DNA of 64,000 nucleotides from Rhizodiscina lignyota (taxonomy: Eukaryota > Ascomycota > Dothideomycetes > Aulographales > Rhizodiscinaceae), in contig ML978126.1 in the NCBI GenBank assembly GCA_010015805.1, positions 1,736,001 through 1,800,000 of the forward strand. The letters run 5' to 3'. The notes beneath the pieces are model-generated. The model made no database searches. It was given only the letters and a program-made list of their open reading frames with translations, and was not told where the DNA came from. The position numbers and the translations under genes were made by a program. Positions 9,379 through 26,010 of this stretch are shown piece by piece; the stretch's first letter is position 1, and every line of letters begins with the position of its first letter.

Positions 9379-9387
9379 TAGTCATCA

Positions 9388-9643
9388 CAAACAAGAATAT
9401 AAGCGAGTTTACAACCTTTTCCACGCTAAGTGCCAGCATCCCTCAAGAGGCTCCTACTCTACTATCTTTTCTTACCTGCCTTTAGATAGATTATACTTTA
9501 ATTTCCGTTACGTTCAACTTGCTGCTTGATATATAACCCGAGTATCATCTTGAATTAATATAGTATTCTCTAGATTGCATAGCTTCAACGAGCTTGACTT
9601 ATTTAATCGAAGAGCCTGGCTAGGCTCTGTGTCCAAATGACAT
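9388..9643 (+). repeat. Left arm of a long inverted-repeat pair
   Basis: This sequence matches the reverse complement of 14561-14981 over most of its length. Shared anchors include AACCTTTTCCACGCTAAGT, ATATAACCCGAG and GAGCCTGGCTAGGCTCTG; the last contains a short palindrome. The left arm is about 165 bases shorter, lacking internal segments. The two arms point towards each other and bracket genes A to D. I cannot assign a transposon family; no transposase is seen between them. Confidence 0.75.
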
Positions 9644-10002
9644 CACTAAAGTATTGTGCGAGGAAGCATAACTTCTAAGAGTGATTGCGAATATCTAGAC
9701 AGCATGGAGGAGTTGAAGCGCGAAGGAAGCCTAGTTGTGGCGGGTGCTCAACGCTAGCCAATATTTAGCCGATTGAGGCGCAGCCGGACAAATATGCAAA
9801 CTAGCCGTATTTAGCTATACAGTACAGTTGATATAACCTAATTGGTACCAGCTAAAAGTCCGTTAACGACCCTTTATTTCTTGAACTGCTTCGTGCAGTG
9901 CAACTTTCTCTCCAAATTTCTCTCACACACTGCCTCTGACCTACAACACAAGTGTCTTCTTGGTTCTGATAGCCGTAAAACGATTCTGAATTCGTCTGTA
10001 TC
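9644..10002. other. Intergenic, presumed promoter of gene A
   Basis: AT-rich, with no open frame of note and no recognised motif. Confidence 0.4.
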
Positions 10003-10637
10003 ATGACCGATTCTCGCAACGACGGTGGGGCACGTCGCCTCGCGGGGGTTGAAGGTACGATTGAATCCAATCAGTCAAGTATTGCTCATAACATTTCTCA
10101 GCAGCAATGGACCGGCCAGAATTGGCGGCGAGCGAGAAGGCATTGGATAAAGAAATCTATGATTTGAAGAAAATTTTATCAATGGCGGAAGCAGATCTCG
10201 ATGAAGAAGCGTTTGCCGAACGGACCAAAGAACTTGGCTCGCAATTCCTACAGAGAGACTTCTACCTTCATGATCTCCGTTCATCCAATGATCGCGAATT
10301 GCGTTTAATGAAAGATCGGGAGGTTCTCAAGCCGAACTTCAAATTACTCCTTGTAAGCTCGTCCGAATCTCCGTTTCATTGCGTTGGATATAAATGGCTG
10401 ATTGTTACGAAGGGTGTTCTGATTGAACACCATTCAACCGATGGCATAATGGCTGATGGTACCGACCTGAATGCCATTAGACTCCAGTTTGACACCAAGA
10501 TGAAACGATTGCAAAAGTTGGTGGATGCGGGCAAGCAGCAACATGCAGCATACGACCACAATGGTATCGAAGATGGTGAGCGCGAGTCTAACAGAAATGC
10601 GGTCATCGATCAGTCTGAATGGTCGCTGGAGGATTAA
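10003..10637 (+). CDS. Accessory gene A: unknown helical protein
   Basis: Exon 1 is 10003-10054 and exon 2 starts at 10102 (gtacga donor, ttctcag acceptor), with phase preserved. A further 60-base stretch at 10353-10412 starts with gtaagc and can be read through or spliced without changing frame. The protein is about 175-195 residues, mostly charged helix, with heptad-like repeats from EKALDKEIYDLKKIL onward and a second helix QFDTKMKRLQKLVD. There is no signal peptide or membrane segment. No known domain is recognised. It may be distantly related to gene E: both have two helical halves around a conserved-looking M(A/S)xGTD turn. That similarity is by eye and weak. It lies inside the inverted-repeat pair. 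Confidence 0.55.
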
Positions 10638-10819
10638 TTCTCGTCTTCAATGGCTCGTTCATTCGCGCAACTCTCAGAGTTTAAAGGCCAGCGCATAACA
10701 CCCGTGACGCTCCTTTTGCAACAGTGCGCTCCCCCACCTTTAAGTTCGACACAACCTCTATTGCAACACACTTCATCACACAAATTCATCATTCATCAAA
10801 CGTATATCCTTTAACGCGA

Positions 10820-11290
10820 ATGTCAATCGCAATGGCATCAGATATGCTTGCCAGACTTAATGAGAAGGAAGCGCAGGCGAAGGCATTACGAGCTCAAGTC
10901 AACGAAAATCTTTCTCCAAGACAGAGGCATATTATCAGGACTCGTATGCGAATTGAAACACTCGAAACCGTTATCGAAAGGGAACAATTCTATTCGCAAC
11001 TGTTCGAAGCGTATGGAGCATACCTCAAAAGTGAGCCACGAGACCTCGCCGGCGGGGGCCAATGGATACCGGAAGGTTTGTCAATGTATGCAATCATATT
11101 AGTGCAAAGCTAATGCGATTATGCAGGCGATCCTCTCGATGAGTACAACAAACTTAAAACCATCCTTACCTCACTCGATCCACGATACGTCAAAGAAGTT
11201 GAGAGTCGTCAAGCCAACGAACGCAAGCTGCTGGATCAGTTGCAGGAGGACAATAAAGCTGGCAACACCACGTCCACCAGCTCTGACTGA
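10820..11290 (+). CDS. Accessory gene B: unknown coiled-coil protein
   Basis: Two exons, 10820-11075 and 11127-11290 (gtttgt donor, atgcag acceptor), give 139 residues with matching phase. The N-terminal two thirds look like a coiled coil (LARLNEKEAQAKALRAQVNE, then RMRIETLETVIEREQFYSQL). A short loop GGGQWIPEGDP and another helix follow. The tail is Ser/Thr-rich. No domain is recognised, and no second copy is seen in the window. It follows gene A on the same strand with about 180 bases between them. Confidence 0.55.
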
Positions 11291-11742
11291 TAATACAAAG
11301 GCGCAATCAGGATGCTAGGCAAGGCATAGGAGGCTATGGTGTATGGTTGGGCTTCAATTGGCAGTACTGGAAATTACTTAGCCTCTCTGATTTGATTCAA
11401 TGGCTCTGAATCAATCACCAACCCCGATACGGCTTGAAGGCTCACATGAAATTGTTTGCATCACCGTTACATCAATCGTTATCATCAGAGATCGTGAAGT
11501 CGTGATGCATTTCAATGTTAATGCCATGTAAGAAGAGATTTACCACGCCCCATCGTATGATTATGTGCAATCAATGCCCAGCTCCGTTGGATTATCATGC
11601 AATTGAGCCCATTCAATGCATCATTCAATGCATCATTCAATTGACAACGCCGATCAGTTACCGAATCCATTCCGATTTTAGCCATTGCTGCCATTTCGCA
11701 CAATCGCATCCACTAACGCTATGCAGGACGCAGAATCAGATG
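11291..11742. other. Intergenic between convergent genes B and C
   Basis: No gene. A short direct repeat of CATTCAATGCATCATTCAATG type sits near 11610-11640. Confidence 0.4.
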
Positions 11743-12636
11743 TCATCCTTGACTAGAATAACAGGAAGCGTCCATGCCCAAAAACTCAAGGATGTCTGCG
11801 CTTGGATCTTCATCGGACTCGGTCAATTGCATGTTAGGATTCACCGATTGTGGCATCGGTTCGCCCAATGTTTCGAATCCAGGTAGACTTTCGATGCCCT
11901 CTGGTGCCTCAACGGGTTCGTTAGGGATGGTGTCAGGGTCTGTCCTAGGCTGCGTCGGTGTGGTGTTTGGTGCCTCGACCCTCGAATTCTTCTTGTCCAT
12001 CACCTCGAATGCCCCTTTCGCCCACACCATCCAGTCGTACATGTTGAATGGAGAACGACAGAGGAGACACGATCTTTCATTGACATCTTGGATGAGCGCT
12101 GCATTGGGCCTGACACCAATTTCCCTCTCAATGGCGATGCATACCCTGGGCACTTCAAAATGCTCAAGGCGGATCTGCTGCTTGAACTTTTCGAACGGCG
12201 TTAGACTGTTGGATGCCACATTCGTTGGTGGGTTATTGGAACCCTGCGTAGCATCATCTCCAGAGGGTCCAGGGATTGATTGATTGTTCATGTCAGTTGG
12301 CTTAACTGCTGCTTTCACACGTGTACCGCTGATTGGATTCGGTGTATGCGGATTGATTTGGTCAAACCAGATCTGCTTCAATTGATCCTTCTGGGCGTCG
12401 ACTTTCTTCGATTTGTCAATGGCATCGATTGGATCAATGAGGTTGAATGCAATGACAGTTGAAGGTTCCTCGCCCGGTTTCTTGCCGACTTGAATATAGA
12501 GTTTGGGACTGCCGCTCTGGTGCGCAACGTAACAGTACACTGTTTCACCAGCATACTGGTCAGCGTCTGCCTTCACCTTGCCCGCCACCATATATTTTTC
12601 AAACACCCTCTTAATACTTCCTGTGTCATTCGCCAT
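11743..12636 (-). CDS. Accessory gene C: unknown family, paralogue of the gene at 22150
   Basis: Single coding exon, 297 residues. No known domain is recognised. It is clearly homologous to the protein at 22150-22947: both start with an RxF(E/N)(K/E)YM segment, share PHTxNPI near residue 100-120, a (Y/F)E(K/R)F block, an IGV(R/K)P segment and an (R/C)SPF motif followed by a Trp pair. The N-terminal half looks like a compact alpha/beta domain and the C-terminal 80 residues are Pro/Glu-rich and probably disordered. A leader intron is plausible, ending in cttctcttacag just upstream of the start. It lies downstream of gene D on the same strand, the same order as in the second block. Confidence 0.7.
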   Translation of the reverse strand: MANDTGSIKRVFEKYMVAGKVKADADQYAGETVYCYVAHQSGSPKLYIQVGKKPGEEPSTVIAFNLIDPIDAIDKSKKVDAQKDQLKQIWFDQINPHTPNPISGTRVKAAVKPTDMNNQSIPGPSGDDATQGSNNPPTNVASNSLTPFEKFKQQIRLEHFEVPRVCIAIEREIGVRPNAALIQDVNERSCLLCRSPFNMYDWMVWAKGAFEVMDKKNSRVEAPNTTPTQPRTDPDTIPNEPVEAPEGIESLPGFETLGEPMPQSVNPNMQLTESDEDPSADILEFLGMDASCYSSQG

Positions 12637-12965
12637 GGTGGATTGTCGAAAGAGAAAGGATGTACGGGTGTTGAAGATCTCCGACCTGTAAGAGAAGTAG
12701 CACAGTTAGCAGTGAATGAGAGTGATACAATAGGTTCCATACCGGTAGAGCTTCTTTCCAACAACAGCTCTAGATGAAAGTTATAGCCTCTGGGATATGA
12801 AGCCGTATTGGCAAGGGCGAAGGCGTATGAGTAAGAAATGTGATTATTAAGAGATGAAGGTACGTAGTTGTCTGTCAAGTCAAAGAATATATACTGTTGA
12901 GGAAGGTAAAGGCGAAGTGAGCTCAAGGCAGCAGTAAAGAACTGTTGCAGTATATATCGTACTTC
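12637..12965 (-). promoter_or_regulatory. Leader and promoter of gene C, with sequence reused at 14388
   Basis: The minus strand holds two adjacent blocks, one around ACTGCTGCCTTGAGCTCACT and one around TTTGACTTGACAGACAACTA with an AACAGTATATATTC TATA-like stretch. The same two blocks recur on the plus strand at about 14388-14510 in the opposite order. A leader intron (gtatgg donor, tacag acceptor) lies near the start codon. Confidence 0.55.
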
Positions 12966-13140
12966 GTCCCAATTGGAGAGTGAGGGTGGCTTGTCAAGTT
13001 GCCCGTGTATGATCTTGTGTGAGCAAGTGAAATATTCATATCTAGTCGGCGGCTAATATTTCAAAAATAGCCACTGCTCGGATCCACTACAATAGAAAGG
13101 AGGGAATTATCCACGAGTGAATTGAGTAAAGTGTACCGCA

Positions 13141-14046
13141 TCAATCAATACCCAGCCTACCAGCAATTTTCGCCCTTGCTTCGCCAATCGCATTACCGAC
13201 GGTGATGAACTTTTCATTCTGTTTCATCATTTGCAATGAGATCATTTTGGTGAGTGTTGTTCCCCCAACTGATTGGTCCATTGGGGATGGATCCTTAGGG
13301 TGAGGTTGCTTGCTGGCAATGACCGAATTGGCCAGAAAAGCTGCGTGAGCTCTTTTCTTTCCGGGGTTGTACGTGCTGAATTCAGCGCGCTCTGTGTCCA
13401 GGCAAAGGATCTGATCCATCTCAATTTTTTGAATGTGAGTCCTCATGATCCCATCCACAATGGTCAAAACACGAAGAAGCTCTCCTTCAAACTTGCGCTC
13501 AATTGCCTCTCTTGCTTCCATTGCCCGATGATAACCCAATATCTTATCACGATTGTAGGCTAGGTAGGTGGGCATCTCTTTGTCATTGATCGGAATGGCC
13601 TGGAGAGAGGCGAAGAATTGGTCGGGCTTCGCCTTCAAGAATCGGTTTATGTGAGGCCGGCAATGATTGAGCGGGACTAGCAAAACATGCAGCGCATGAT
13701 CCGCACAACTGTTATTGACTTGTTCTGCTGTGGTGCTAGGCTTGATTGATTGAAGTATCTCGTCGATGTCTGGCGGCGTCGGTATGTCGTCGAAATATCT
13801 TTCATTGGGATATCGCAGCAGAAGCATTCCGCTCGCCAATGAATCATCGACGTATTTGGCGGTATCCTCGAGGAGGGCCAATGAACCCTCAATCAACCAC
13901 ATTCCTTCCTCGAATCCATCCCTACACAACTTAGCGACATCGTGGTGGCCCCTTAAGTTAGGACTGCATAGCGTCAGTGAATGAGTGAAGCAATGTATAA
14001 CAGAAGCAACTTACCGGATTATGCTGTCTGTTTCGTTTGCGGACAT
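13141..14046 (-). CDS. Accessory gene D: unknown helical family, paralogue of the gene at 20550
   Basis: Two exons, 14046-14015 and 13963-13141, give 284 residues; the intron sits after 10 codons in phase 2. The copy at 20550-21508 has an intron at nearly the same place and phase. Homologous positions include the helix around DDSLASGM, the DDIPTP turn, a long central helix with YNRDKILGYHRAME, and the landmark DPSPMDQSV (DPSPMERSV in the other copy). The protein looks all-helical and soluble. No domain is recognised. It probably belongs with C and SNF2 to one cassette. Confidence 0.7.
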
Positions 14047-14387
14047 TTAGAACGATGGATTTGGAGTTATAAGTGAGCCGCTTATCAGTGTGAAGGGTGA
14101 CCATGAGATAAGCATATATTAGTCGTGAAATTGGCCTGATGTTTTGTTTTGGTCATGATGGAGGACCGTATCTACTCTGTAAGGAACAAAAGTCCGAAAG
14201 TAGATTAGCCGGGGATTTCCGGAAGGCACTGTCCTAGTTGAACCGAGGTTTAGCCCGGGTTTAGCCCTTGCCTAAACCTCTTAAGTCGCTTCTACGTCGC
14301 GTTCTTTCCGAAACCTCTACAACTTTCAATATTACTGCCTAAAGCTGTCTAACTCTGCTTTATGCTCCGTTGAGGTTACCTCCTTAC

Positions 14388-14602
14388 CCTTCCTCAACAG
14401 TATATATTCTTTGACTTGACAGACAACTACGTACATTCATCTCTCTACTGCAACAGTTTTTTACTGCTGCCTTGAGCTCACTTCGCCTTCGCCTTCCCTA
14501 CCGAAACTCAATCGATCATACTCTCTACCACCATGCCAGTAGGCCTTGGAAAGGCCCTTCATGTCATTTGGACACAGAGCCTAGCCAGGCTCTTCGATTA
14601 AT
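14388..14602 (+). pseudogene. Orphan copy of the gene C promoter with a truncated start
   Basis: The blocks TTTGACTTGACAGACAACTA and ACTGCTGCCTTGAGCTCACT of the gene C promoter are repeated here on the plus strand. They are followed by a CCACC-ATG at 14532. The frame from this ATG runs only 23 codons, because it enters the right arm of the inverted repeat at 14561 and stops. I read it as the promoter and first codons of a gene cut off by the repeat; what the gene was cannot be told. Confidence 0.5.
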
Positions 14603-14981
14603 ATAAGTCAAGCTCGTTAAAGCTGTGCAATCTAGAGAAATACTACCTAAAGTATATTGCATTAAACTTCCAGGTATGCTCGCGCTTACATCGAAGAGTA
14701 AATACCATATTTGCTTTGCTATTTCTGTTTTCCTTGGCTATACCAACTTCGAGCGAGTCCATTAAGTAAAGATGATGCTCGGGTTATATAGTCAAGCGGC
14801 AAGTTGAACACGACGGAATCGAAGTATGACCTATCTAAAGGTAAGCGAGAAAAGATAGTAGAGTAGCATCTAAGCAATATAAGGTATGATACTATACTGC
14901 CTGATCAGAGTAGGAGTCTCTTAAGGGATGTTAGTACTTAGCGTGGAAAAGGTTATAAACTCGCATATATTCTTATTTGCG
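14561..14981 (-). repeat. Right arm of the long inverted-repeat pair
   Basis: This is the reverse complement of 9388-9643 with about 165 additional internal bases, in two main segments near 14645-14780 and 14865-14910. The inner edge joins the truncated start at 14532 and the outer edge joins a SNF2 gene fragment at about 14985, so both sides of the arm interrupt gene sequence. It contains no open frame of its own. Confidence 0.75.
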
Positions 14982-14984
14982 ATT

Positions 14985-15236
14985 GATCATATTAGTCAAT
15001 CCAAGGAGATCACCGTGTACTATCTCGTCGCAACAACTTCCATCGAAAACTATCGTGTCCAAGTCCAAGAGTGGAAACAACACATTGCGGATGGGGTTCA
15101 ACACCCTGAGCAACACACACTGCTAGCCGCATAGACGCGCGTGCACGCCCGCCCCAAGCGTAGATCTAAACGCAAGACCGCAAATGACGTTATCGATGAA
15201 ATGGATCATTGGACAGTCGAGGACCTGAAGCCGAAG
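14985..15236 (+). pseudogene. SNF2-family helicase, C-terminal fragment
   Basis: The plus strand encodes a piece matching the end of the SNF2 gene at 18947-20337: QSKEITVYYLVATTSIE aligns with GQKDKVMIHYIIANESIE, and ADGVQHP with ADGVMRP. After one in-frame stop the similarity resumes (PKRRSKRKT and DHWTVEDLKPKV against KRKKPKTKA and FWDVSTVKTRV) and ends at a gtatac donor, close to where the other copy also has an intron. Nothing of the ATPase core remains, as the repeat arm abuts the 5' edge. It is divergent from gene D, like its counterpart. Confidence 0.7.
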
Positions 15237-16154
15237 GTATACATCCACATATTGTAATTAGCATCTGCATCCACACGTACTAACTCATGCCAAGCTTGCA
15301 AAAATTGGTCGCGCCATCTAATTATGCGATCCCACGTTCAGAACGGTTCGTGTGGTCCTTCAATCCATTGAGCCATCACGTGCTGCACACAAATTCATTG
15401 AATACTCCCAATCTGAACCCTTCCCAATGCGTTCGGCGATTGATTGTCGTAGGAAGGCTAGCTCTAAAGTGGTGAATATTACGGATTCTGGGGATCAATG
15501 GCAAATGGGTTGGCATCTGGCTGGTGGCGTTCATAAATTTCATTTCTCAAGGTCTCCGGGAAGACGGGTGAAGCTATGAAAGATGATTGAGCTGACCGGG
15601 AAAGTTTTGGGCTAAAAGTATCTTCAGGTGTTTCACCTCGAAGTCATTGAGCTGGCGGCTGGCAATCATTGCTGTTTCCATTGATGGTGACAACAGGCAT
15701 GATATCAGAAGGAAGAGAAAATCGTCATTTTGAATATAGAGATCATTCTATGTCCAGGCCACCATTCAGTGCCTTTGTCATGTCAAAGACTTGCCATTCA
15801 ATTGTGAAACGAACGCAATATGCAATCTCCATTCGAGCTACCGTCATGCCCAATTCATTCCAATTCATCGAATCATCTGTGATACGTGCTCTCGCTGGTA
15901 TGATCACGATCATCGGTACCATTCGGAAGTGGACGAGAACCAAAGAGAAGAGAAGAAACTCCGTTTAACCCATGAAATGTTTTATTGGCCAACCCCAGTG
16001 TATCATTCTCCATATGATTGGCATCGAAACCAATCATTCTGCCACAAACGATGACCTACGGGTAGCTACAATCCATGGATTGCTTCGCTCTCGCAGGTAA
16101 CATTTAATGGCGAGGGCGCGGCCCAATACCCAACCAAGTAAAACGATGATGCCT
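15237..16154. other. No gene recognised
   Basis: Open frames are short and without recognisable domains. The stretch has many CAATCATTC/GATTGG-like words but no clear tandem array. It may hold worn remains of the cassette. Confidence 0.4.
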
Positions 16155-16693
16155 TCATTCTGGTTTCACAGCAAATTTGCGACGCCTTTCCTCGCCCTCC
16201 TTGATTTTGGTAGCGGCGAGATCATCGATTTGCTTCAGAATCGTCCCTTCGTCGTCTGTCCCGCTCATCGCCTTCTCAGCATCCGCTTCAGCCACCATGT
16301 ACCATTTAACCTTGGCGGTGATTCGATCGCGCGCCTTTCGAAGCTGCTCGAGCCGCTCTTCGAGGTTGGTCTCGGCCTCGGTCTATCTGTCAGTCAGTCA
16401 TTGAGCCAATGATTTACGGCAACCCAAGTAAAGAATACACTCACAAGACTAGCGGTTAAGGTAGGCTCGTGCAGCACCCACGTTTTGTATCTTGCGCCAG
16501 CCTCGATAAGCTCCTCCTCAGTGATGAGTGGGTTGTTTTTGTCCAATGTGGCAATGTCTGCCCGGAGATGTGCAATGTCTTCATCCATCGCGGCGCACGC
16601 CGCTTTCTGATCAGCTTTCTGCTGTGCCAATGCGGCATTGAGCTTCACGATTCGTTTCGAAATTTTGGAGGTGGAGGAGTCTGTGCTCGACAT
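16155..16693 (-). CDS. Accessory gene E: unknown coiled-coil protein
   Basis: Two exons, 16693-16445 and 16382-16155 (gtgagt donor, acceptor cagatag), give 158 residues in phase 0. The alternative acceptor four bases earlier breaks the frame. The protein is mostly charged helix: an N-terminal helix KRIVKLNAALAQQKADQK, a short ITEEELIEAGARYKTW segment, and a second long helix TNLEERLEQLRKARDRI. No domain is recognised. It is divergent from gene F, and the shared promoter carries a 107-base tandem repeat. Confidence 0.55.
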
Positions 16694-16778
16694 GTTGGGG
16701 GTGGTGGCTTGGTTTATCGCGCTATTAAGGTTTTCTTTGGTTGAGGAAATAAGTTGAGAATGTTTAAAGAAAAAGGTT

Positions 16779-16989
16779 TATATTTACGAATTTCGTAAAA
16801 CGCCAAGACCTGCTGAGCGGCTGCCAAAGATCGTGGCGCCTGATTCTATTGACCATCAGCCACGTGACCCCTCTGTGAAAAAGACTATATTTACGAAAGT
16901 AAAATGCCACCTGCTGAGCGGCTGCCAAAGATCGTGGCGCCTGATTTCTATTGACCATCAGTCACGTGACGCCTCTGTGAATAAGGTAT
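16779..16989. repeat. Two tandem ~105-base units with CACGTG boxes between genes E and F
   Basis: Units 16779-16885 and 16886-16989 share TATATTTACGAA, CCTGCTGAGCGGCTGCCAAA and GATCGTGGCGCCTGATT, and each carries a CACGTG hexamer (CAGCCACGTGAC and CAGTCACGTGAC). The second unit ends at a TATATA stretch about 170 bases before the gene F start. The position suggests duplicated binding sites in a bidirectional promoter; CACGTG is the core site of bHLH factors in fungi. Confidence 0.75.
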
Positions 16990-17162
16990 ATATTCAACAG
17001 CCTGAACTCTCTTTCTCTTGCTTACTTCTTCTTTCTTATAACTTGCGCACTACGATCAATGCGCGGATGATACCGGTACGCTCCCTATCTCTACTCACAT
17101 ATCGGAGCTAATGTTACCTCAGTTTAAAAAACAGAAGAGACCCCATATCCAGCAACGAAGCA

Positions 17163-18124
17163 ATGGCACCAAAGGCGAAGACCGAGGCGGAGAAGAAGGA
17201 AGCAAGGTCAGCGGCGGGGGAAAAAGCTACCGAGACAACAAAGAAGAATCGACAGGCGGCACAGATGGAGGATGAAGGAGAAGCTGATGACGTACACTCA
17301 AATTCAGATACGGATTCCTCTGATGTGCGTACAAAGAGCAGAGGCAAGAAGCGTACAATGACAGAGGAGGATGAAGACAATGGCGAGCCAAAGCAGACGA
17401 AGAAGCAGAAGAAGGAGAAGCATAACCGCAAGAGTGGAGCGGGTCGCAAGAAGCCTGAGACATCAGCGGCGGCGCAAGAGGACGAAGGCATACAAGAAGA
17501 AACAGCGAAGACTTCGAGTAAACGCCCCGTCCTCACCCACCTTAACGAGGCATCTCAATGAGGCAATGAACTCCTGCAAGGCGTGCTGACAATAGTACAG
17601 AGAGCGCCACCCAAACTGTCACCCCAACTAGCACGAAAACCCCCACGAGTTTAGTTGCAAAAGCGACGCAAAAGGTAGCTTCCTCGAAGACAACAACTCC
17701 AACGCCTGCGCCGTATACCGTCTTTGAGCTAGAGCTGAAGCACAAGATGCTCGAGTTGGAACTGGCAGCTGGAAAGAAGCTATTTGATGAAAAGATGGCG
17801 TTGTTGAAACAGGAGAAGGCTTGGTTGCAGAATCGCCTTGCCGAAAAGACTTTTCTTTACGAGATCAGCAAGATGGCTCAAGAAGAAAAGGATCATGGTG
17901 ATCCTCTCGTGACGCTTGTCGCCGAGTTGACTGCGGCAAGGCCGCAACGGGAACAGTCGGCTGCGGAAGAGTTGATAGGAACTGGCATGGGCGATCGCAT
18001 GGGCGCGAACAAAAATAGCGGAGCAACCCCCGTTGAAGAAGCCGGCGAGAAGGATGAGACATCTAGTGACGATGACGATGAAGAAATTGACATGGAGGCT
18101 CTGCATGCGGCTATGAGACAGTGA
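17163..18124 (+). CDS. Accessory gene F: basic/acidic, probably nuclear coiled-coil protein
   Basis: Two exons, 17163-17517 and 17601-18124, give 292 residues with matching phase. The first 130 residues are low-complexity, with Lys/Arg clusters (KSRGKKRT, KQTKKQKKEKHNRKSGAGRKK) that look like nuclear localisation signals. A Thr/Pro linker and a coiled coil follow (FELELKHKMLELELAAGKKL to LKQEKAWLQNRLAEK). The C-terminus is acidic (DDDDEEIDME). The layout resembles DNA-associated fungal and plant proteins with NAM-associated-like coiled coils, but no domain is certain. The leader holds a four-codon upstream frame at 17059-17070 and probably an intron (gtacgc at about 17076 to cctcag). Confidence 0.6.
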
Positions 18125-18542
18125 GCAAAAGGCGTTCTGGTATGGCGCAATGCCACATCGAGATGTGGTGGTGTCTGCGCTGGCAAGGGAGAAGGCAGAT
18201 AAATCGACCACACTTAAAGATTCTGGGCATAAAATTGGGGGTTGGGTTTCTAAATAATTCACGGTTGTTTCCATAAACTGCATTATCAAAGACAATCAAG
18301 ATACCTTGCATGAATTGCCTTTCATCCGTAACTTGGAAGAAGTTGAAGCCCTGAATGCAGTGCACAAGGGCCCGCTCGGATGAATCATTGTGTGCACGGA
18401 TCTTTGAGGGAATGTAGCAGAGTGTAATGTAAAATTCTTGGTTTAAAGTACATGAGAGAATTGGTTTCAAAGCTACTAGCGTGCCAAGGCCCACATCATT
18501 TCCGACAGCCCCGGTCAGATTTTGGTGAGTAACTAGGCAAGT
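18125..18542. other. Intergenic, no gene seen
   Basis: 3' flank of gene F. Near 18524 a 14-base stretch TTTGGTGAGTAACT also occurs at the 3' end of the SNF2 gene near 19021, too short to interpret. Confidence 0.4.
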
Positions 18543-18766
18543 GGCTAACAGAATAGTTGAGTCGAGGCTGTAATATATCGAACCACAAAGATATATATCC
18601 TCGTGAGTTAATATAGATTATATATCTTAAAGCTATACGATTTTAATAAATATACTTTAGTATTTATATAATCGAGGTTTCAGAGATACTCTCGTATATG
18701 CTGAAGAATAATACTTATTATTACTACAGCCGTTCCAGTCAATCGGGCTCAACTATTTTGTCCCCC
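18543..18766. mobile_element. MITE copy 1 (non-autonomous DNA transposon), degenerate
   Basis: A 224-base element bounded by imperfect inverted ends (GGCTAACAGAATAGTTGAGTC and, inverted, GGGGGACAAAATAGTTGAGCC). The interior is AT-rich without an open frame and resembles the element at 23283-23507, including TATATCCTCG and GAGATACTCTCG-like words. The ends have drifted more than in the second copy, so it is likely older. No transposase is in the window. No clear target-site duplication was found. Confidence 0.75.
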
Positions 18767-18946
18767 TCGTGCTAGGTTTTCCCTATCTAACCTTTTCAAG
18801 TAAAACCGGATCCGCAACCTTGGCAATGTCCCCGCCACCGTTCAACCACAACTTAACGCCTGCACCCTTTCATCCAACCGACGCCTCCTCTCTGCTTGAC
18901 CAGCAATGATCCATTCGATGTCGTCTCCGCAGCTTCAATGGAACTA

Positions 18947-20337
18947 TCAGGAATGGGTACCCATAAGATTAGCCACGTCGGCCTCTTCGTCCTGCTCGGT
19001 GGCTGAGATGGTCAGCTAAAATTTGGTGAGTAACTGCTCCGCAGACTGTGAAGTTTCGAACTTACTCTGGTTTTCACAGTTGAAACGTCCCAGAATTTCA
19101 TCTGTTGAACAACATGTGCTTTCGTCTTAGGCTTCTTGCGCTTTCCCCATGGGACATACTGCCTCTTCTCGTTCGCCAGTTCAGCATGGTAGCTCGGACG
19201 CATCACCCCATCCGCCAAGGTCGTCTTCATTTCCTGGACACAAGAGCGATGGAGCTCGATAGACTCGTTTGCGATTATATAATGGATCATCACTTTGTCT
19301 TTCTGTCCGATTCGAACAATGCGATCCTTGCATTGCTGCTCGCAAGCAGGATTCCATCCCGCATTCAGGATAATAACAGTGTTCGCCAATTTGAAGATCG
19401 AGCCTGTCACAAGGTTGTCATCAGCTCATTGCCTCAATGGCGTTACCAAACCAGTCCTTACCCATCTGAACCGACTTTCATGCTCGCCAACAGGACCTCC
19501 GGGCCTTATTGTTCTTGGAAGCTCTCCAAAGCCTTCACGCGCTTCTTGTCGCGGCTAGTACCGTCATATCGCGCATGCGTGATCTTGTTTGCTTTCAGTG
19601 CCGCTTCAACGAGGTCGAGAGCATCGGTCCATTCGCAGAAGATGACTACCTTCGAGCGCTTGGAAGTCTCCGATGAGCCATTGATGATGTACAGACATTG
19701 GTCCACTTTTGGGGAATGCCAGTTGGTAGCGACGTAGTTCTGCCATTCCTGATTGCTCTTAAAGGTCCTTCGTCTTGGGAGAACTTAACCTTTGTTGTAA
19801 GGTGCTTGTACCATTGGTCCAAAATACCCAGGGTGCAAACGACGAGCGTATTCGCTGGCGGGCTGAGCGGACGGCTGACGAGCAATGCCAATGCTTGGAT
19901 GATCTTTCCAAGACCCATATCATCTGCCTGGATTCCACCTTTTAATTCAGAATCCTCCATCCTTATCATCTGACCGACTCCTTCGAGCTGATGTGGAAAT
20001 AGCTGGAACATTTGACCAGTGATCGAATCTGGTATTCTCATTCGCTCCGGCGTAGACGGTAAAGCATGGACCGATGTGGTAAGGTAATCAGGCGCCTTCA
20101 ACCCTCGTTGAAGCAATGCTAACAAGCGCTCAGCGACGCCGCTATCTCCATCTTGATCTTTTGCTCCGAGGGCAGGTACGACGAGTTGTTGTGGTTAGGA
20201 TCAGGACTCCTGTATAACCAAGTGCCCTCGTCGTCGTTAGAAAACGCCTGACGGAGATGAGACACCACAAGTTCCATTGCTGCATTGCGCGGCCGTTCTG
20301 GATTCGTCCACTTTCCGGACTTTGGAAGACGAATCAT
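18947..20337 (-). pseudogene. SNF2-family helicase-like gene, probably non-functional
   Basis: The minus strand encodes recognisable SNF2 pieces. LFPHQLEGVGQMIRMEDSELK and the Walker A region IQADDMGLGKIIQALALL come first (the usual GKT reads GKI), then LGILDQWYKHL. The helicase C-terminal lobe follows: SKVVIFCEWTDALDLVE, ARYDGTSR, VLLASMKVGSDG, and after a gtaagg intron ANTVIILNAGWNPA and RIVRIGQ. A last intron leads to a stop at 18947. The part with helicase motif II (DEAH) and its neighbours is missing between about 19740 and 19800, one in-frame stop lies in the C-terminal lobe, and the frame changes near 20130-20180. Relatives are Rad5/Rad16-like SNF2 ATPases that remodel chromatin or act in repair. 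It is divergent from the D copy at 20550 across about 210 bases. Confidence 0.75.
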
Positions 20338-20549
20338 GGTGGAAGTATTGTTTTGAATAGTATAAGTGAGAAAAGGTGAAGAAGTTCAATCGCATTGGAA
20401 CCCTAACACTATATCCTACCGACCGGAACAGAGGTTGATCCGGAACCTCTTGGCAAATATTCTTTATTTCATGGAGACAGAGCTTGCCGAATACATTTGA
20501 ATATGCTCACGCTCTCCCTTTCGAATTTTAGATCTTGAACTACCCAAAC

Positions 20550-21508
20550 ATGGATTCCAACATTAGAGGGGATACGTACATCGCAGGACCGGATGATTTG
20601 TATGTATCGTCGATGCTGCGATACATAGTTTCAAGACCTTGGTCGGCCACTAACTCAACCACTTCAGTCCAACCCCCGATAAGATTCGAAATATCATCCT
20701 TGGATACCGTGGACAATTTGAAGAATCCGAACGCTCGATCAAGACAATTCTAGAAGTGCTGCAGCGTGCTGCCCAATGGGTCAACAACACATTAGCCCGC
20801 GGCATGGTCGCCCTCGAACATGGCGATCAGCGATTTTAAGACGACATTCCTGCCCCACTGTCCCTATATGAGCTCATCGACGCAGTCCGCCCTGCTGCTA
20901 TTGATTTAGACATCAATCCATTATTAGCTTCTAGAGCACTCTACGACCTACTGGGTGCCATCGACAAAGCGCGCCCTTTCCTGAACCAAACCCTCGCTTC
21001 TGAACCTACATCATATAATAATAGTCTTCAACAATTCGCTATCGATAGCGACATCCCGATCGCGAAGAAGAAACATATGACAACGCTTCTAAATTACAAC
21101 CATGCAATGCACCAGCGACGCATGATCCAGGTTCGGTTTGAGGACAAACTGCGCTCAGTGCTGACAAGCGTTGTCACGGCACTCCAGCCATACCTGGAAC
21201 AAGTCCAATCTGGAAGACAGGACTGTTCAGAGCACCAAGTGTCCGCATACTGTGGAGCCACAGAAGCAAAGCAGCTGGAGATCATTCACGAACTAGGCAA
21301 ATCTCTCGTGGTGTTGCAGCAACCTGATGGAGACCCATCGCCGATGGAGCGATCGGTCTTTGCGGTTGGTCTGCGGCGGATTATGCGACTCAGAATGTGG
21401 GATCTTGACGAGATATTCTTGAAGAACAGAGCCGAATTGGACGACTGTCTTGTTGCATTGAACCAACTAAGCCCACCAGCGCAAGCAGCCGGCACAGAAG
21501 TTGAGTGA
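20550..21508 (+). pseudogene. Second copy of family D, with one in-frame stop
   Basis: Exons 20550-20575 and 20668-21508 mirror gene D: the intron is phase 2 after 8 codons and the protein aligns along its length (NNTLARGM with DDSLASGM, DDIPAP with DDIPTP, YNHAMHQRR with YHRAMEARE, DPSPMERSV with DPSPMDQSV). A TAA at 20837-20839 interrupts the frame just before DDIPAP; the remaining 223 codons are open. Either the copy was disabled recently or it is read through or spliced in a way I cannot see. The rest of the frame, intact and well conserved, argues for recent loss. Confidence 0.65.
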
Positions 21509-22149
21509 AGGGCTAGCTCTCGCCTATCGTCATTATCAAATTCGTTCCACCAACCAAGTGAAGCGTTGCGCTTGTGTAGACCGGATACGGAACTCAAATA
21601 TCTTCACTTACTTGTTGCGCTGCTTCGAAACAATCTATACATCTTTTGATCACGTGATCCGCACTGTAGCAGCAGTACTTAATATCTTCTTTCGGCCCTC
21701 CTCCTTCTCTTTTATTTCTCTCTCTCAGAAACATACTGGGCCGTACTGCAAAGGCTACAAATTGCTATTCCCTCTATGATTACCAATATCGCAATAGGAC
21801 CTTTGGGCACCCCAGGCAACAGCAATTACACGTCTTGACGAATGAATCACTCCTCTACTAAGCTCCAACCAGCAGGACGCATTTGTTTCACATTGGAAGG
21901 GAGTGGGCTGACCCCGTTTCACTTCAAGTAAGTTAACCTTGGCAAAGCCCGTGTTCTAAGCTTATATATCTGACAACTTAGACTCTTCCACTTCTCATGC
22001 TTCATTGACGACGGTGCCGACCTGCACAGCCTCACTCCTCCATTTCACTACCGAAGCCCGATATTGCAGAACGGACTCCAGGCTTACAAGCTTTCATTGC
22101 TTCATTACCAACTATACACCCCCGAATCATCACTATAGCTTCCATTAAG
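21509..22149. promoter_or_regulatory. Leader/promoter of the second C gene, with a CACGTG palindrome
   Basis: A perfect 12-base palindrome GATCACGTGATC lies at 21648-21659, the same CACGTG core as in the E/F promoter. A leader intron is likely (gtaagt near 21929 to caacttag near 21981), matching the leader intron of gene C. No other gene is seen. Confidence 0.5.
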
Positions 22150-22947
22150 ATGGCTGCCGCCGCAAATCAGCCTGTACAACGCGCATTCAACGAATACATG
22201 ATCGTCGGTCATGATAACCAGGACATCAGTCGCATGGTCTATTTTAAGATTGATAGACGCGGGGAGACTGGCTACAAGACTGCTTTCCGAGTGATCGAGC
22301 CGCCGAAGACCTCACCACATGCTGTAATCTCGTACAAGAAGGTTCAATTCTTGCTGCAGTATGCAAATATTGCAGCATCAAAAAGGAATGAAAAGCTGTC
22401 GGAGCTATGGCTACAACATGTCGATCCGCATACTGCCAATCCAATAGCACAGCATATAACGTTTGCAACCAACTCACAGAGTACGTCGACCACTGAAAAG
22501 CTTGCCGCATACGAACGATTCAGGCGCGCCATTGCAGTGGAACCCGACGAACTGCCAATGGTTGCGGTGGCCATCGAGAAAATTGTCGGTGTGAAGCCTG
22601 AGACAACGTTGCTTAAACAGATTCACGAGGAGTCTCGTCTCATCCGATGCTCGCCGTTCGACATCCCTGCGTGGATCAGTTGGCACATTCTCTACGAAGA
22701 CGAAATTCGGGCGAATTTGAGCAAAAAGGTGCTACCAACGCCAATGCCAATGCCGACGCCAACGCCAACTCCAAAGAAAAGGGAGTTAGATGCTGCTACG
22801 GATGCTGCTACAGATGCTGCTACGAAGAAAAGGAAGCCGGATCCTGCTACGGATGCTGCTGCAAAGGAAAGGAAGCCGGATCGTGCTATGGATGCTGCTA
22901 CGATGGAAAGGATGCGGGATGCTGCGTTCATCTCTGCGCTCATGTGA
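22150..22947 (+). CDS. Second copy of family C, with a repetitive C-terminal tail
   Basis: Single exon, 265 residues. The first 195 residues align with gene C at 11743-12636: RAFNEYMIVG, VDPHTANPIAQ, YERFRRAI, IVGVKPETTLL and RCSPFDIPAWISWH. The last 60 differ completely: a run of Pro-Thr/Met dipeptides, then DAAT/DAAA units alternating with KKRKPD or KERKPD clusters, encoded by a gatgctgctac-like minisatellite at about 22787-22925. The Lys/Arg clusters could serve nuclear import. Function is unknown. It lies downstream of the D copy, as gene C does. Confidence 0.7.
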   Translation: MAAAANQPVQRAFNEYMIVGHDNQDISRMVYFKIDRRGETGYKTAFRVIEPPKTSPHAVISYKKVQFLLQYANIAASKRNEKLSELWLQHVDPHTANPIAQHITFATNSQSTSTTEKLAAYERFRRAIAVEPDELPMVAVAIEKIVGVKPETTLLKQIHEESRLIRCSPFDIPAWISWHILYEDEIRANLSKKVLPTPMPMPTPTPTPKKRELDAATDAATDAATKKRKPDPATDAAAKERKPDRAMDAATMERMRDAAFISALM

Positions 22948-23282
22948 TTGACTTAGGAGCTTGTGGCCCGGTGGGGGTAATTTACATTGCACTATCCTTC
23001 TGATAGTTTCATATATAATGAAGAGTTGGGGTAATTTCGAGATGACTTAATGATGGCAGAAAAAAAGTGGTTACGGAGTTCGGGGAAACAGTTTGCTTGG
23101 GCTGGGGCGCAATTGCAATGCCTCATTTCCTACCTCTTGCGCACAATCGCTGGAATCATCCCCCTCTACAAATCAAAACGTTGATGCTGCATTGCCCAGT
23201 TCAGGTACCAATCAATATCGAATTACTGATAACTGACTCGCATTGTTTGTGTATGTTGGTCCATACGGATACGTACTCAAGT
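22948..23282. other. Intergenic, no gene seen
   Basis: 3' flank of the second C gene. Nothing was recognised before the MITE. Confidence 0.4.
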
Positions 23283-23507
23283 GGGTGACAAAATAGTTGA
23301 GTCGTGGCTGCAATATACAGAACTACGAGGATGTATATCCTCGATAGTTAATATAAGTTATACACGGTAAAACTGCGTGTTTTAGATAAACGAACTCTAG
23401 TATATAATTTATCGACCTTTTAGAGATGCTCTCGCTAGCGTTGAAGAGGAAACCTCGCTTTTGCTGAATACGTTTAAACTTTGCAGGATTCAACTATTTT
23501 GTCACCC
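23283..23507. mobile_element. MITE copy 2 (non-autonomous DNA transposon)
   Basis: A 225-base element with near-perfect inverted ends: GGGTGACAAAATAGTTGAGTC at the left and its inverse with one change at the right. The interior matches the element at 18543-18766 in length and word order (GTATATCCTCG, GTTAATATAAGTTATA, GAGATGCTCTCG). It has no coding capacity. The superfamily cannot be fixed from the ends alone, and no clear target-site duplication is visible. Confidence 0.8.
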
Positions 23508-24046: not shown

Positions 24047-24061
24047 AAAAAAAAAAAAAAA
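24047..24061 (-). terminator. RNA polymerase III T-run terminator of the U6 gene
   Basis: Fifteen consecutive T on the minus strand directly follow the U6 3' end. A second long T-rich run lies another 20-35 bases downstream. Confidence 0.8.
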
Positions 24062-24157
24062 CTGGAGCGTCTCTTTGTTTGCATGTGTCATCCTTAGTGC
24101 AGGGGCCATGCTAATCTTCTCTGTATCGTTTCAAATTGACCAAATGCCCGAAGGCGT
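24058..24157 (-). ncRNA. U6: U6 spliceosomal RNA
   Basis: The minus strand carries the U6 hallmarks in order: the 5' hairpin GCCTTCGGGC, then ATTTGGTCAATTTGAAA, the ACAGAGA box in CGATACAGAGAAGATTAGCA, the AGC triad region within ATGGCCCCTGCACTAAGGAT, and a 3' segment ACAAAGAGACGC ending in a run of T. U6 pairs with U2 and the 5' splice site and forms the catalytic core of the spliceosome. The 5' end is placed at the hairpin and could shift by a few bases. A weak TATA-like CTATTTAATT lies about 25-35 bases upstream. No intron is seen. The T run is the expected RNA polymerase III terminator. Confidence 0.93.
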
Positions 24158-24740: not shown

Positions 24741-26010
24741 CCGCAAGCAAACCTCTTCAATCCACCTCAACTTAGGGATTCAGGATGTAAATAACTTCTA
24801 CGACTACGCATTTCATGTATCTCCTCGCAGTCCGTCAAGGTTCATCTCTTGCAAGGCGTGCAGAGTATTTTGTCCTTTGAACTGTGCTACAGTAACCTGA
24901 TCAAAGCAGACAGACGCGTCCTCGATGCTTCTTGACCTTCGTCTTTGCCGCAGATTTAGTCCCTTCATCCGTTTATTGCACAGACTTTCCGCTGACCATG
25001 TAGCTCCAATCTTTATTAAGGTTTAATAAACTTCTTCTTCTCTAGAGCTGTCCGTAGTCACGCATTTGCTCAACACCGAACCTTCCTCTGGCCTCTTCAA
25101 CTTAGGAACTCAAGACGGAAAGAACTTCTATGACTACCCATTTCTTATACCTCCTCCTAGCCGTGGAAGGCTTATCTCTTACGAGTCTTGCAGAGCATAT
25201 TACTATTTGAACTGTGCTGCTCTAACGCAACCAATACGGATAGAAGCCTCGTCGATACTCCTTCACCTTCCTCATTACCGCAGATATGCTTCTTGCTTGG
25301 CAAACGATCTCTGCGAGTGCTTTGCCAGATGTCGTCTCCCATGAGTAGCCACAGGCATGAGGACGGCTCCTCTTCGACCCATGCATCATATACCTTGTCG
25401 GACTGCGGTGCAAGCGATTTTATCTCGAAGAACAGCTCGGTAAGATCCTCTGCGCTGCCATCCCAGATCATAGCCAGAGATACCACCGCCCCGGCAATGG
25501 CAGGCATCGGATGTATGGTGACGGACCTTGCTTGTCCCTCTGGATCGCCGTAGGCAGCATCAACCAGGGCTTGCACGTCTTTCGCGAAGCCACCAAACAT
25601 TTTAGCCACGCCCGCCCTGACGTTCTCCATTGTGTTCATTGCGAGGCAAGCTTTCCAGGTAGGCCGGACGTCATCTTAAGGTAGAAAAAGGGGCTCCAGC
25701 AGCTTTCGATGCGAGCTTAGCGAAGTTGAAGCGGGATCGATTTTGTATTGCACGGGCTTTTCGCTGACTGTACAGTTCCTATCTTCTTTGAGTTTATTAT
25801 AGCCTAGAACTCTTCCGCGATCATGCATTTGCTCGAGATCGAAGCCTCCTCGATGCTCCTTAACTTTCTTCTTTACCGCAGATATGCTCATTTCGTCCCT
25901 TTGTTGCACAACCCTTTCATTAAGTACATAATATCGATCTTCTTCAGTTCCCTGAGCTCATTCTCTTCTAGAGCGGTTCTACAGTCTTACGTTGGCCCAA
26001 GATCGGAGCC
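24741..26010. repeat. Degenerate dispersed repeat, about three partial copies
   Basis: Segments near 24750-25066, 25088-25300 and 25735-25960 share worn words in the same order: CCTCTTCAA..CTTAGG, TTACCGCAGATATGCT, TTGCACrG.CTTT.CGCTGAC and CACGCATTTGCTC-like. The copies are partly rotated, as expected from an old tandem array with deletions. On the minus strand the copies share a short open pattern (SAVKKKVKEHRGGF and AVMRKVKEYRRGF), so they may derive from a gene segment. Origin unknown. Confidence 0.5.
25172..25639 (-). CDS. Hypothetical open frame inside the degenerate repeats
   Basis: 155 codons. The N-terminal 110 residues look protein-like (MFGGFAKDVQALVDAAYG, then MPAIAGAVVSLAMIWDGSAE, FFEIKSLAPQSDKVYDAW), with a sensible alternation of hydrophobic and charged residues. 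The C-terminal part runs into the repeat copy at 25088-25300 and looks accidental. No family is recognised. It may be a fragment of a larger, decayed gene. Confidence 0.3.
   Translation of the reverse strand: MNTMENVRAGVAKMFGGFAKDVQALVDAAYGDPEGQARSVTIHPMPAIAGAVVSLAMIWDGSAEDLTELFFEIKSLAPQSDKVYDAWVEEEPSSCLWLLMGDDIWQSTRRDRLPSKKHICGNEEGEGVSTRLLSVLVALEQHSSNSNMLCKTRKR

Follow-up and report, generated by a model that had tools for sequence, protein, structure and literature searches.

Two mirrored, strongly diverged SNF2–D–C blocks at a single locus of Rhizodiscina lignyota

Genes and repeats of the locus

The window analysed is a 64-kb stretch of the Rhizodiscina lignyota genome, and all positions given here refer to it. 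It contains a locus of two SNF2–D–C blocks, mirrored in order and strand and strongly diverged from each other. On one side of the locus is an amidohydrolase gene, on the other the U6 and ABC-transporter genes. As originally predicted, a SNF2 sequence adjoins each D gene, and both pieces belong to one SNF2 subfamily. SNF2 and D are divergent, C follows D on the same strand, and the blocks face opposite ways; this orientation and the mirrored order were confirmed. The features are:

9384–9643, minus strand: left copy of an inverted repeat, directly behind an amidohydrolase gene
11743–12636, minus strand: C1, a family C gene of 297 aa in an open frame, with a probable leader intron at 12686–12742
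12850–12952, minus strand: C1 leader sequence, two pieces of which recur at 14382–14497, 88–94% identical and in swapped order
13141–14046, minus strand: D1, two exons with a phase-2 intron at 13964–14014, free of visible lesion
14382–14497, plus strand: recurrence of the C1 leader sequence, lying upstream of what is left of SNF2_1
14561–14983, plus strand: right copy of the inverted repeat, immediately preceding the SNF2_1 remnant and 84–95% identical to the left copy in aligned pieces
14985–15236, plus strand: SNF2_1, a remnant of ~80 codons from the C-terminal end of a SNF2 ATPase, carrying an in-frame stop and lacking the ATPase body
18538–18775, no strand assigned: MITE-like element beside block 2, with 40 scored genome matches including itself
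19066–20337, minus strand: SNF2_2, broken SNF2 ATPase gene, interrupted by a stop and frame changes and missing a large internal segment; model NA57DRAFT_76319 covers part of it
20550–21508, plus strand: D2, two exons with a phase-2 intron at 20600–20667 and an in-frame stop at 20837–20839; model NA57DRAFT_76320 splices round the stop
22150–22947, plus strand: C2, a family C gene of 265 aa in an open frame, with a probable leader intron at 21928–21981
23278–23505, no strand assigned: another MITE-like element beside block 2, from the family of the first

The leader introns proposed for both C genes are plausible from splice signals read by eye. The original prediction missed the decay of the locus – D2 is broken, and so are both SNF2 copies. 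The reading frames of C1, C2 and D1 are open, so that three of the four small genes remain open whereas neither copy of the motor is whole, and the locus is a record of module decay. Public gene models hide this decay: the D2 model splices past the stop, and no database models were found for C1, C2 or D1.

Families C and D

Families C and D each occur twice, as had been claimed, and the copies are paralogues. C1 and C2 share 26% identity over 207 amino acids (BLASTP, E 3e-20), with a Smith–Waterman score of 190, where shuffles averaged 35.1. D1 and D2 share 28% over 196 amino acids (E 5e-26), with a score of 289 against 33.2, and none of 200 shuffles equalled the score of either pair. These values bear out the high protein divergence noted earlier. 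The homology between the D copies extends upstream of the D2 stop (29% over query residues 10–269), and the early D intron is indeed in phase 2 in both copies, following a first exon of 32 nt in D1 and 50 nt in D2; the D2 junction is consistent with database model P0001. In C1, C2, D1 and D2 the frame given above had the top codon-use score (trained on eight stretches of other genes in the window), and antisense-frame scores reached 0.06 in D1 and D2, against 0.13 and 0.14 in the given frames.

Genes A, B, E and F had been suggested as further parts of the duplicated cassette, but no clear pairwise relation was found for them. Only C1/C2 and D1/D2 were clear in the shuffle test among the 28 pairs of A, B, C1, C2, D1, D2, E and F; the weak pairs A/D1 (4 of 200 shuffles equal) and E/D2 (3 of 200) are near noise for 28 tests. 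Genome-wide searches gave no second copy of B and, for the second open part of F, a single match at E 0.5.

In the 33.4-Mb assembly no C copies were found beyond C1 and C2, and no other D copies apart from a broken 325-bp fragment on another contig (85.5% identity). This fragment is isolated, with sharp ends and no C or SNF2 nearby. Between D2 and the fragment, dN is 0.076 and dS 0.268, a ratio of 0.28 over 101 codons (approximate Fisher p 0.001), which argues that D evolved as a protein. The fragment suggests that there was once a diverged haplotype or a third copy of D, and thus a history that is not simply one of two copies. A silent dS of 0.27 with little protein change is also what diverged functional alleles would show. 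Together with extreme divergence despite conserved order, it would fit a locus of idiomorph or incompatibility type, at which balancing selection kept strongly diverged versions of the module and this strain captured two, their function since lost. No known incompatibility domain passed the cut-off in the proteins scanned, however, and the SNF2 copies are broken. Such a history is highly improbable.

Outside this genome, no homologues of C or D were found among 5.8 billion proteins, except the record of D2 itself. The original prediction held that homologues scattered through other fungi would make the gene order a chance result; searches of predicted proteins found none, either scattered or adjacent. 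Neither family had a match over the cut-off in Pfam or NCBIfam, and the best matches of C and D to PDB sequences were at E 0.28 and 0.86. Residues 168–252 of C2, including its repeat tail, match a PHROGs family of unknown function (best E 0.005), and D2 has a sub-threshold Pfam match to a recombinase-like HTH (14.3 bits, cut-off 27). A viral or bacterial origin was considered and rejected, as searches of IMG/VR and prokaryotic genomes, with two short peptide patterns each, gave no relative of C or D. Structure predictions were unusable for both C1 (mean pLDDT 42.0) and D1 (39.5). Judged by title or abstract opening, no paper found to name the species concerns the locus, and literature searches on SNF2 genes in fungal mobile elements and on lineage-specific SNF2 genes turned up no such module.

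Compared to orphan genes of filamentous fungi as generally known, C and D are alike in having no Pfam or NCBIfam match over the cut-off and no outside homologue. They differ in that each family has a pair of diverged paralogues whose neighbours are fixed, and this points to protein-level constraint on C and D. Two families without found relatives, bearing signs of such constraint and tied in their order to a SNF2 motor, make a useful case of a lineage-restricted module.

The SNF2 sequences

SNF2_2 matches PF00176 at 41.7 bits (cut-off 24.9), over the N-terminal part of that domain only (1–74 of 290), and retains the stretches DDMGLGK (motif I) and WNPxxExQxxDRxxRIGQ. Its residues 169–220 span chain residues 79–322 of P0004, which indicates an internal deletion. 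The helicase core is missing from SNF2_1, and neither copy has the full helicase motif set in one open frame. Since neither could yield a working ATPase, the unit action that had been proposed cannot hold for the present locus with its own SNF2 genes, though the ancestor may have had it.

Over the helicase core, SNF2_2 is closer to other SNF2 genes of the genome (best 34%, E 6e-22) than to SNF2_1 (E 2e-9), and the SNF2 link between the blocks is therefore the ~80-residue tail. SNF2_1 and SNF2_2 have a common C-terminal extension beyond the helicase core. For the SNF2_1 remnant, the sole good match genome-wide is SNF2_2 (37%, E 5e-10), and even with E values as high as 10 allowed, none of the genome's other SNF2 genes matched. 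A match to the tail on contig C3 (E 0.27) was set aside, since inspection of the DNA suggested that the gene there encodes an unrelated regulator.

Among the best 120 of 159 database matches to SNF2_2, the extension is covered only by its own gene model, and five others end at query residue 366. The best match outside the species, among the matches listed, is a Hirsutella fungal SNF2/RING protein (34%). Relative to fungal SNF2-family (SF2) ATPases with PF00176 and a helicase C-terminal part, SNF2_2 is alike in its PF00176 score and kept motif stretches. The locus differs in that both copies are broken and in the extension, which none of the 119 other matches covers (best 120 of 159).

SNF2 genes are common in this genome (35 matches, among which are separate pieces of a single gene) and the SNF2_1 piece is short, so the order might be due to chance – unrelated SNF2 sequences as neighbours of two duplicated gene pairs. 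However, it is in the extension past the helicase core that SNF2_1 matches SNF2_2 and no other SNF2 gene, and a search of the whole 33.4-Mb genome placed every full copy of C and D in a stretch of about 11 kb. Even given co-location, free order and orientation of three genes would match in only about 1/24 of cases by simple arithmetic. Chance is an extremely improbable explanation.

Origin of the two blocks

Full copies at one locus, their mirrored order, and the C-terminal extension of SNF2_2 as the only good genome match of SNF2_1 together support a joint duplication of the three genes as a block. Paralogues in mirrored order and strand at a single locus are the pattern of a local inverted segmental duplication. 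For C and the SNF2_1 remnant no closer copy was found elsewhere in the genome; for D2 there is the closer, broken fragment. The reading favoured here, with a probability somewhat better than even, is that a SNF2–D–C module, lineage-restricted within the scope searched, was long ago duplicated once, locally and in inverted orientation, and that the locus is now decaying. This keeps the block duplication of the original prediction, while its mobility found no support.

Under an old inverted duplication, the module would have been copied at this one site rather than arriving twice, and the copies would then have diverged until 26–28% identity was left. The body of SNF2_1 would have been lost and a ~420-bp inverted copy from 5 kb away put in its place, as in break repair with templated insertion. 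SNF2_2 would have been hit by a large deletion and frame changes, and D2 would have acquired its stop. The ancestor may have paired an ATP-driven SNF2 translocase of DNA or chromatin with D across a common divergent promoter, D and C being nuclear partner proteins. That the ancestral module was a chromatin or DNA translocase plus two partners is suggested tentatively and with low certainty. If C and D are partners of a chromatin motor, they would open up an unknown regulator in a little-studied fungal order. C1, D1 and C2 may still be in use without a SNF2 partner from the locus.

No DNA-level similarity between the genes of the two blocks was detected in self-comparison of the window, and a single duplication event is therefore inferred solely from the gene order and the likeness of the proteins; related modules that arrived on two occasions would give a similar picture. 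Already diverged modules that came independently to one favoured site, for example by horizontal transfer, would account for copies that are very diverged (26–28%) beside non-coding repeats that look recent (84–95%), and for the lack of homologues among predicted proteins. Such arrivals are nevertheless unlikely: by eye, the splice signals of the introns are of fungal type, codon use resembles that of the neighbours, no donor appeared in IMG/VR or prokaryotic genomes (two short peptide patterns each), and the favoured site is an extra assumption.

The repeats bear on whether the genes move. The inverted repeat has two copies and brackets B–A–C1–D1, with the SNF2_1 remnant falling outside. Its right copy is a 423-bp inverted copy of DNA ~5 kb distant, adjoining SNF2_1, where the structure is repair-like. 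The repeat was also considered as the mark of an inversion of 9644–14560 and rejected, because reversal would part the SNF2_1 remnant from the sequence that precedes it. No genome copy of the C1 leader sequence was found beyond the two in the feature list. Nine loci, picked by likeness to the first MITE, were used to compare the MITEs; the two are 75% identical to each other over 157 bp, against 89% over 236 bp and 83% over 155 bp for the best copies elsewhere, and judging by these sequences they are probably independent insertions. Self-comparisons of the window gave no repeat pair fitting both blocks, and neither the inverted repeat (9384–9643/14561–14983) nor the MITEs fit as terminal repeats of the SNF2–D–C block.

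With no second full locus found in the genome, a lone D fragment, no fitting repeat pair and MITEs that look independent, the prediction that the genes move as a unit found no support. A mobile or selfish cassette of SNF2, D and C, perhaps with A, B, E and F, inserted twice here and spread elsewhere, would be consistent with the D fragment on another contig (85.5% over 325 bp), with families not found outside the genome, and with the inverted repeat around B–A–C1–D1 and the MITEs flanking block 2. But that fragment is alone and sharp-ended, the bracketing repeat excludes the SNF2_1 remnant, and the MITEs are closer to copies elsewhere than to each other. The genome searches found neither a second complete block nor several complete copies at different sites, and no transposase or recombinase passed the curated Pfam cut-offs in nine predicted island proteins or parts, the HTH of D2 (14.3 bits) being the only hint. 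A mobile cassette is distinctly unlikely.

Starship giant elements carry accessory genes within a bounded island, with a captain recombinase. The locus is alike in having accessory genes within a bounded island, and differs in being far smaller, with no captain recombinase in the proteins scanned and no repeated full copies found. Starships are mentioned in PMC10799480. It is also conceivable, though unlikely, that SNF2–D–C is what remains of a lineage-restricted chromatin module not described before, with idiomorph-like, strongly diverged forms or selfish spread, that the fragment on the other contig is the trace of a third functional D, and that the C and D genes still alive now work without a motor of their own.

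For the repair-like structure at SNF2_1, the closest comparison is with templated and inverted insertions at DNA breaks in yeast, where PMC11724301 describes insertions of two kinds, by local fold-back and from distant templates, local inverted duplications being mostly about 5–34 bp. The locus is similar in having a distant inverted copy where gene sequence is missing. It differs in that the local inverted duplications in yeast have this small size while the copy here is about 420 bp and comes from 5 kb away, by a mechanism that we infer.

RIP was rejected as the main cause of divergence, as only one of the 64 one-kb windows (14001–15000) passed the RIP thresholds applied. Taken alone, the right copy of the inverted repeat and both MITEs pass these thresholds and the left copy fails. 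With passes confined to one window and the repeats, RIP may have touched the repeats and not the genes in general.

Paired C and D genes and the SNF2 tails

The genes of the two blocks are arranged as follows.

11743–12636, minus: C1, family C gene of block 1
13141–14046, minus: D1, family D gene of block 1
14985–15236, plus: SNF2_1, SNF2 remnant of block 1
19066–20337, minus: SNF2_2, broken SNF2 gene of block 2
20550–21508, plus: D2, family D gene of block 2
22150–22947, plus: C2, family C gene of block 2

In protein comparisons, C1 and C2 were 26% identical over 207 aa (E = 3e-20), and D1 and D2 were 28% identical over 196 aa (E = 5e-26). When the 28 pairs among eight predicted proteins of the island were tested by shuffling, only C1/C2 and D1/D2 stood out, neither being equalled in any of 200 shuffles; the scores of A/D1 (4 of 200 as good) and E/D2 (3 of 200) were taken as near noise for 28 tests. 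C1 and C2 are paralogues, as are D1 and D2. The duplicated C and D genes and the SNF2-D-C order of the original prediction are confirmed. Codon use in each of the four genes is best in the frame assigned to it, the reading frames of C1, C2 and D1 are open, and the tail of C2 contains many prolines and basic repeats. The D intron is in phase 2 in both copies, with the D2 junction the same as in the database model; the leader introns proposed for both C genes are plausible from their splice signals.

There are 35 matches to PF00176 in the genome, and some of these are fragments of a single gene. At E ≤ 10, the 14985–15236 piece matched itself, SNF2_2 (E = 5e-10, 37%) and one further place (E = 0.27, judged unrelated). 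The match between the two SNF2 pieces falls in a C-terminal extension past the helicase core. A protein database search with SNF2_2, with candidates restricted to 0.55–1.75 times the query length, returned NA57DRAFT_76319; among the 120 hits listed (the best of 159), only the gene model of SNF2_2 itself covered the extension, and five others end at query residue 366. With the whole of SNF2_2 as the query, matches over the core to SNF2 genes elsewhere in the genome were better (best E = 6e-22, 34%) than the match to the SNF2_1 remnant (E = 2e-9), because the remnant lacks the core. From the shared tail of ca. 80 residues we conclude that both SNF2 pieces come from one subfamily, and that the cassette is more than chance.

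Decay of the two blocks

The ATPase body of SNF2_1 is gone, and the remnant itself holds a stop. Directly before it is a 423-bp sequence (14561–14983), whose sole other copy found in the genome, by a search that skips very common words, is an inverted stretch right behind the amidohydrolase gene (9384–9643). SNF2_2 has frame changes, a stop and no ATPase middle – its residues 169–220 span residues 79–322 of P0004, a related protein. D2 has an in-frame stop (20837–20839) within a stretch that aligns to D1 on either side; the database model of D2 (P0001) calls the conserved stretch containing the stop an intron, which removes it.

The simplest account is that an SNF2-D-C module went through one local inverted duplication, old or fast-evolving, and was then damaged. 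Of the original proposal that the blocks are duplicated and move or act as a unit, block duplication stands. Mobility is not supported, and is not needed for the mirrored order. Joint action would apply to the ancestor only: with no working SNF2 gene in either block, C1, C2 and D1, if still used, would act alone or with another SNF2. The divergent SNF2 and D genes and the C gene that follows suggest joint expression. SNF2 proteins use ATP to move along DNA or chromatin, and judging by this motor alone the module could have been an ATP-driven DNA or chromatin translocase, a function that we consider doubtful. The locus is a neat, if minor, example of orphan genes within a decaying inverted duplication.

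Relatives of C and D

Among ca. 5.8 billion proteins, C had zero matches, and D had no match apart from its own record, NA57DRAFT_76320 of Rhizodiscina lignyota. This negative result is weaker than it appears: the search requires shared five-residue words, and gene models of these families may often be missing, since the species' C genes were absent from the results for C, and D1 from those for D. No public gene models for C1, C2 or D1 were found in the protein searches. Two peptide patterns for each family had no matches in viral contigs and prokaryotic genomes. Neither family had anything above cut-off in Pfam or NCBIfam, and the best E values were 0.005 in PHROGs and 0.28 among PDB sequences. 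Structure models depict D as mostly helical, a picture that carries little weight because the models are of low confidence.

Within the whole genome, no member of family C was found beyond C1 and C2. Family D was represented by D1, D2 and one fragment, on a separate contig that is also labelled C2.

G000 contig C2:470810–471125 (locus L025, 8811–9126): D fragment, 325 bp, 85.5% identical to D2, in otherwise unrelated DNA

The fragment has sharp ends and a frameshifting insertion, and is without the D2 stop. No C or SNF2 was found in the 20 kb around it, tested with six proteins of the island and with two SNF2 pieces, of which one was uninformative (wrong frame); the whole-genome searches with C and SNF2_2 point the same way. 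A comparison of D2 with the fragment gave dN 0.076 and dS 0.268 over 101 codons (approximate Fisher p = 0.001; stop codon, indel columns and first 14 aligned bases left out), so the D protein was constrained over at least part of their history. This constraint points to a third working D, or another haplotype, in the past.

Surroundings and repeats

The window (C6:1736001–1800000; assembly of 33.4 Mb in 29 contigs) belongs to a species of the order Aulographales, Dothideomycetes. Within it, the stretch with the two blocks is flanked by an amidohydrolase gene (PF04909) on one side, and by a U6 snRNA gene and then an ABC transporter gene on the other.

17163–18124: gene F, encoding a lysine/glutamate-rich protein with coiled-coil-like stretches
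18538–18775 and 23278–23505: MITE-like elements of ca. 240 bp, either side of block 2
24056–24155, minus: U6 spliceosomal RNA gene (Rfam RF00026, 88.1 bits), after block 2 and before the ABC transporter gene

At 14382–14497 there is a second copy of two pieces from the C1 leader, 88–94% identical and in swapped order, and no further copies of them were found. The repetition may mean that C1 shared its control with the gene that began there.

The MITE-like family has 40 scored matches in the genome, including the query, from 105 candidates. By eye, its ends resemble terminal inverted repeats. Compared with nine other loci, picked for likeness to the first element, each of the two has a nearer copy at another site (89% over 236 bp; 83% over 155 bp) than its partner (75% over 157 bp), and they were therefore probably inserted independently. 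Of 64 one-kb windows tested for RIP, 1 was positive; among repeats tested by themselves, the right copy of the inverted repeat (14561–14983) and the two MITEs were positive.

The two open parts of gene F are in different frames and must be separated by an intron or a frameshift. Two tandem copies of ca. 107 bp (87%) are found at 16771–16985, in the interval that separates the divergent E and F genes, and are perhaps promoter repeats. Partial direct repeats (60–77%) are found near the ABC transporter gene, at 24749–24955, 25079–25285 and 25836–25910.
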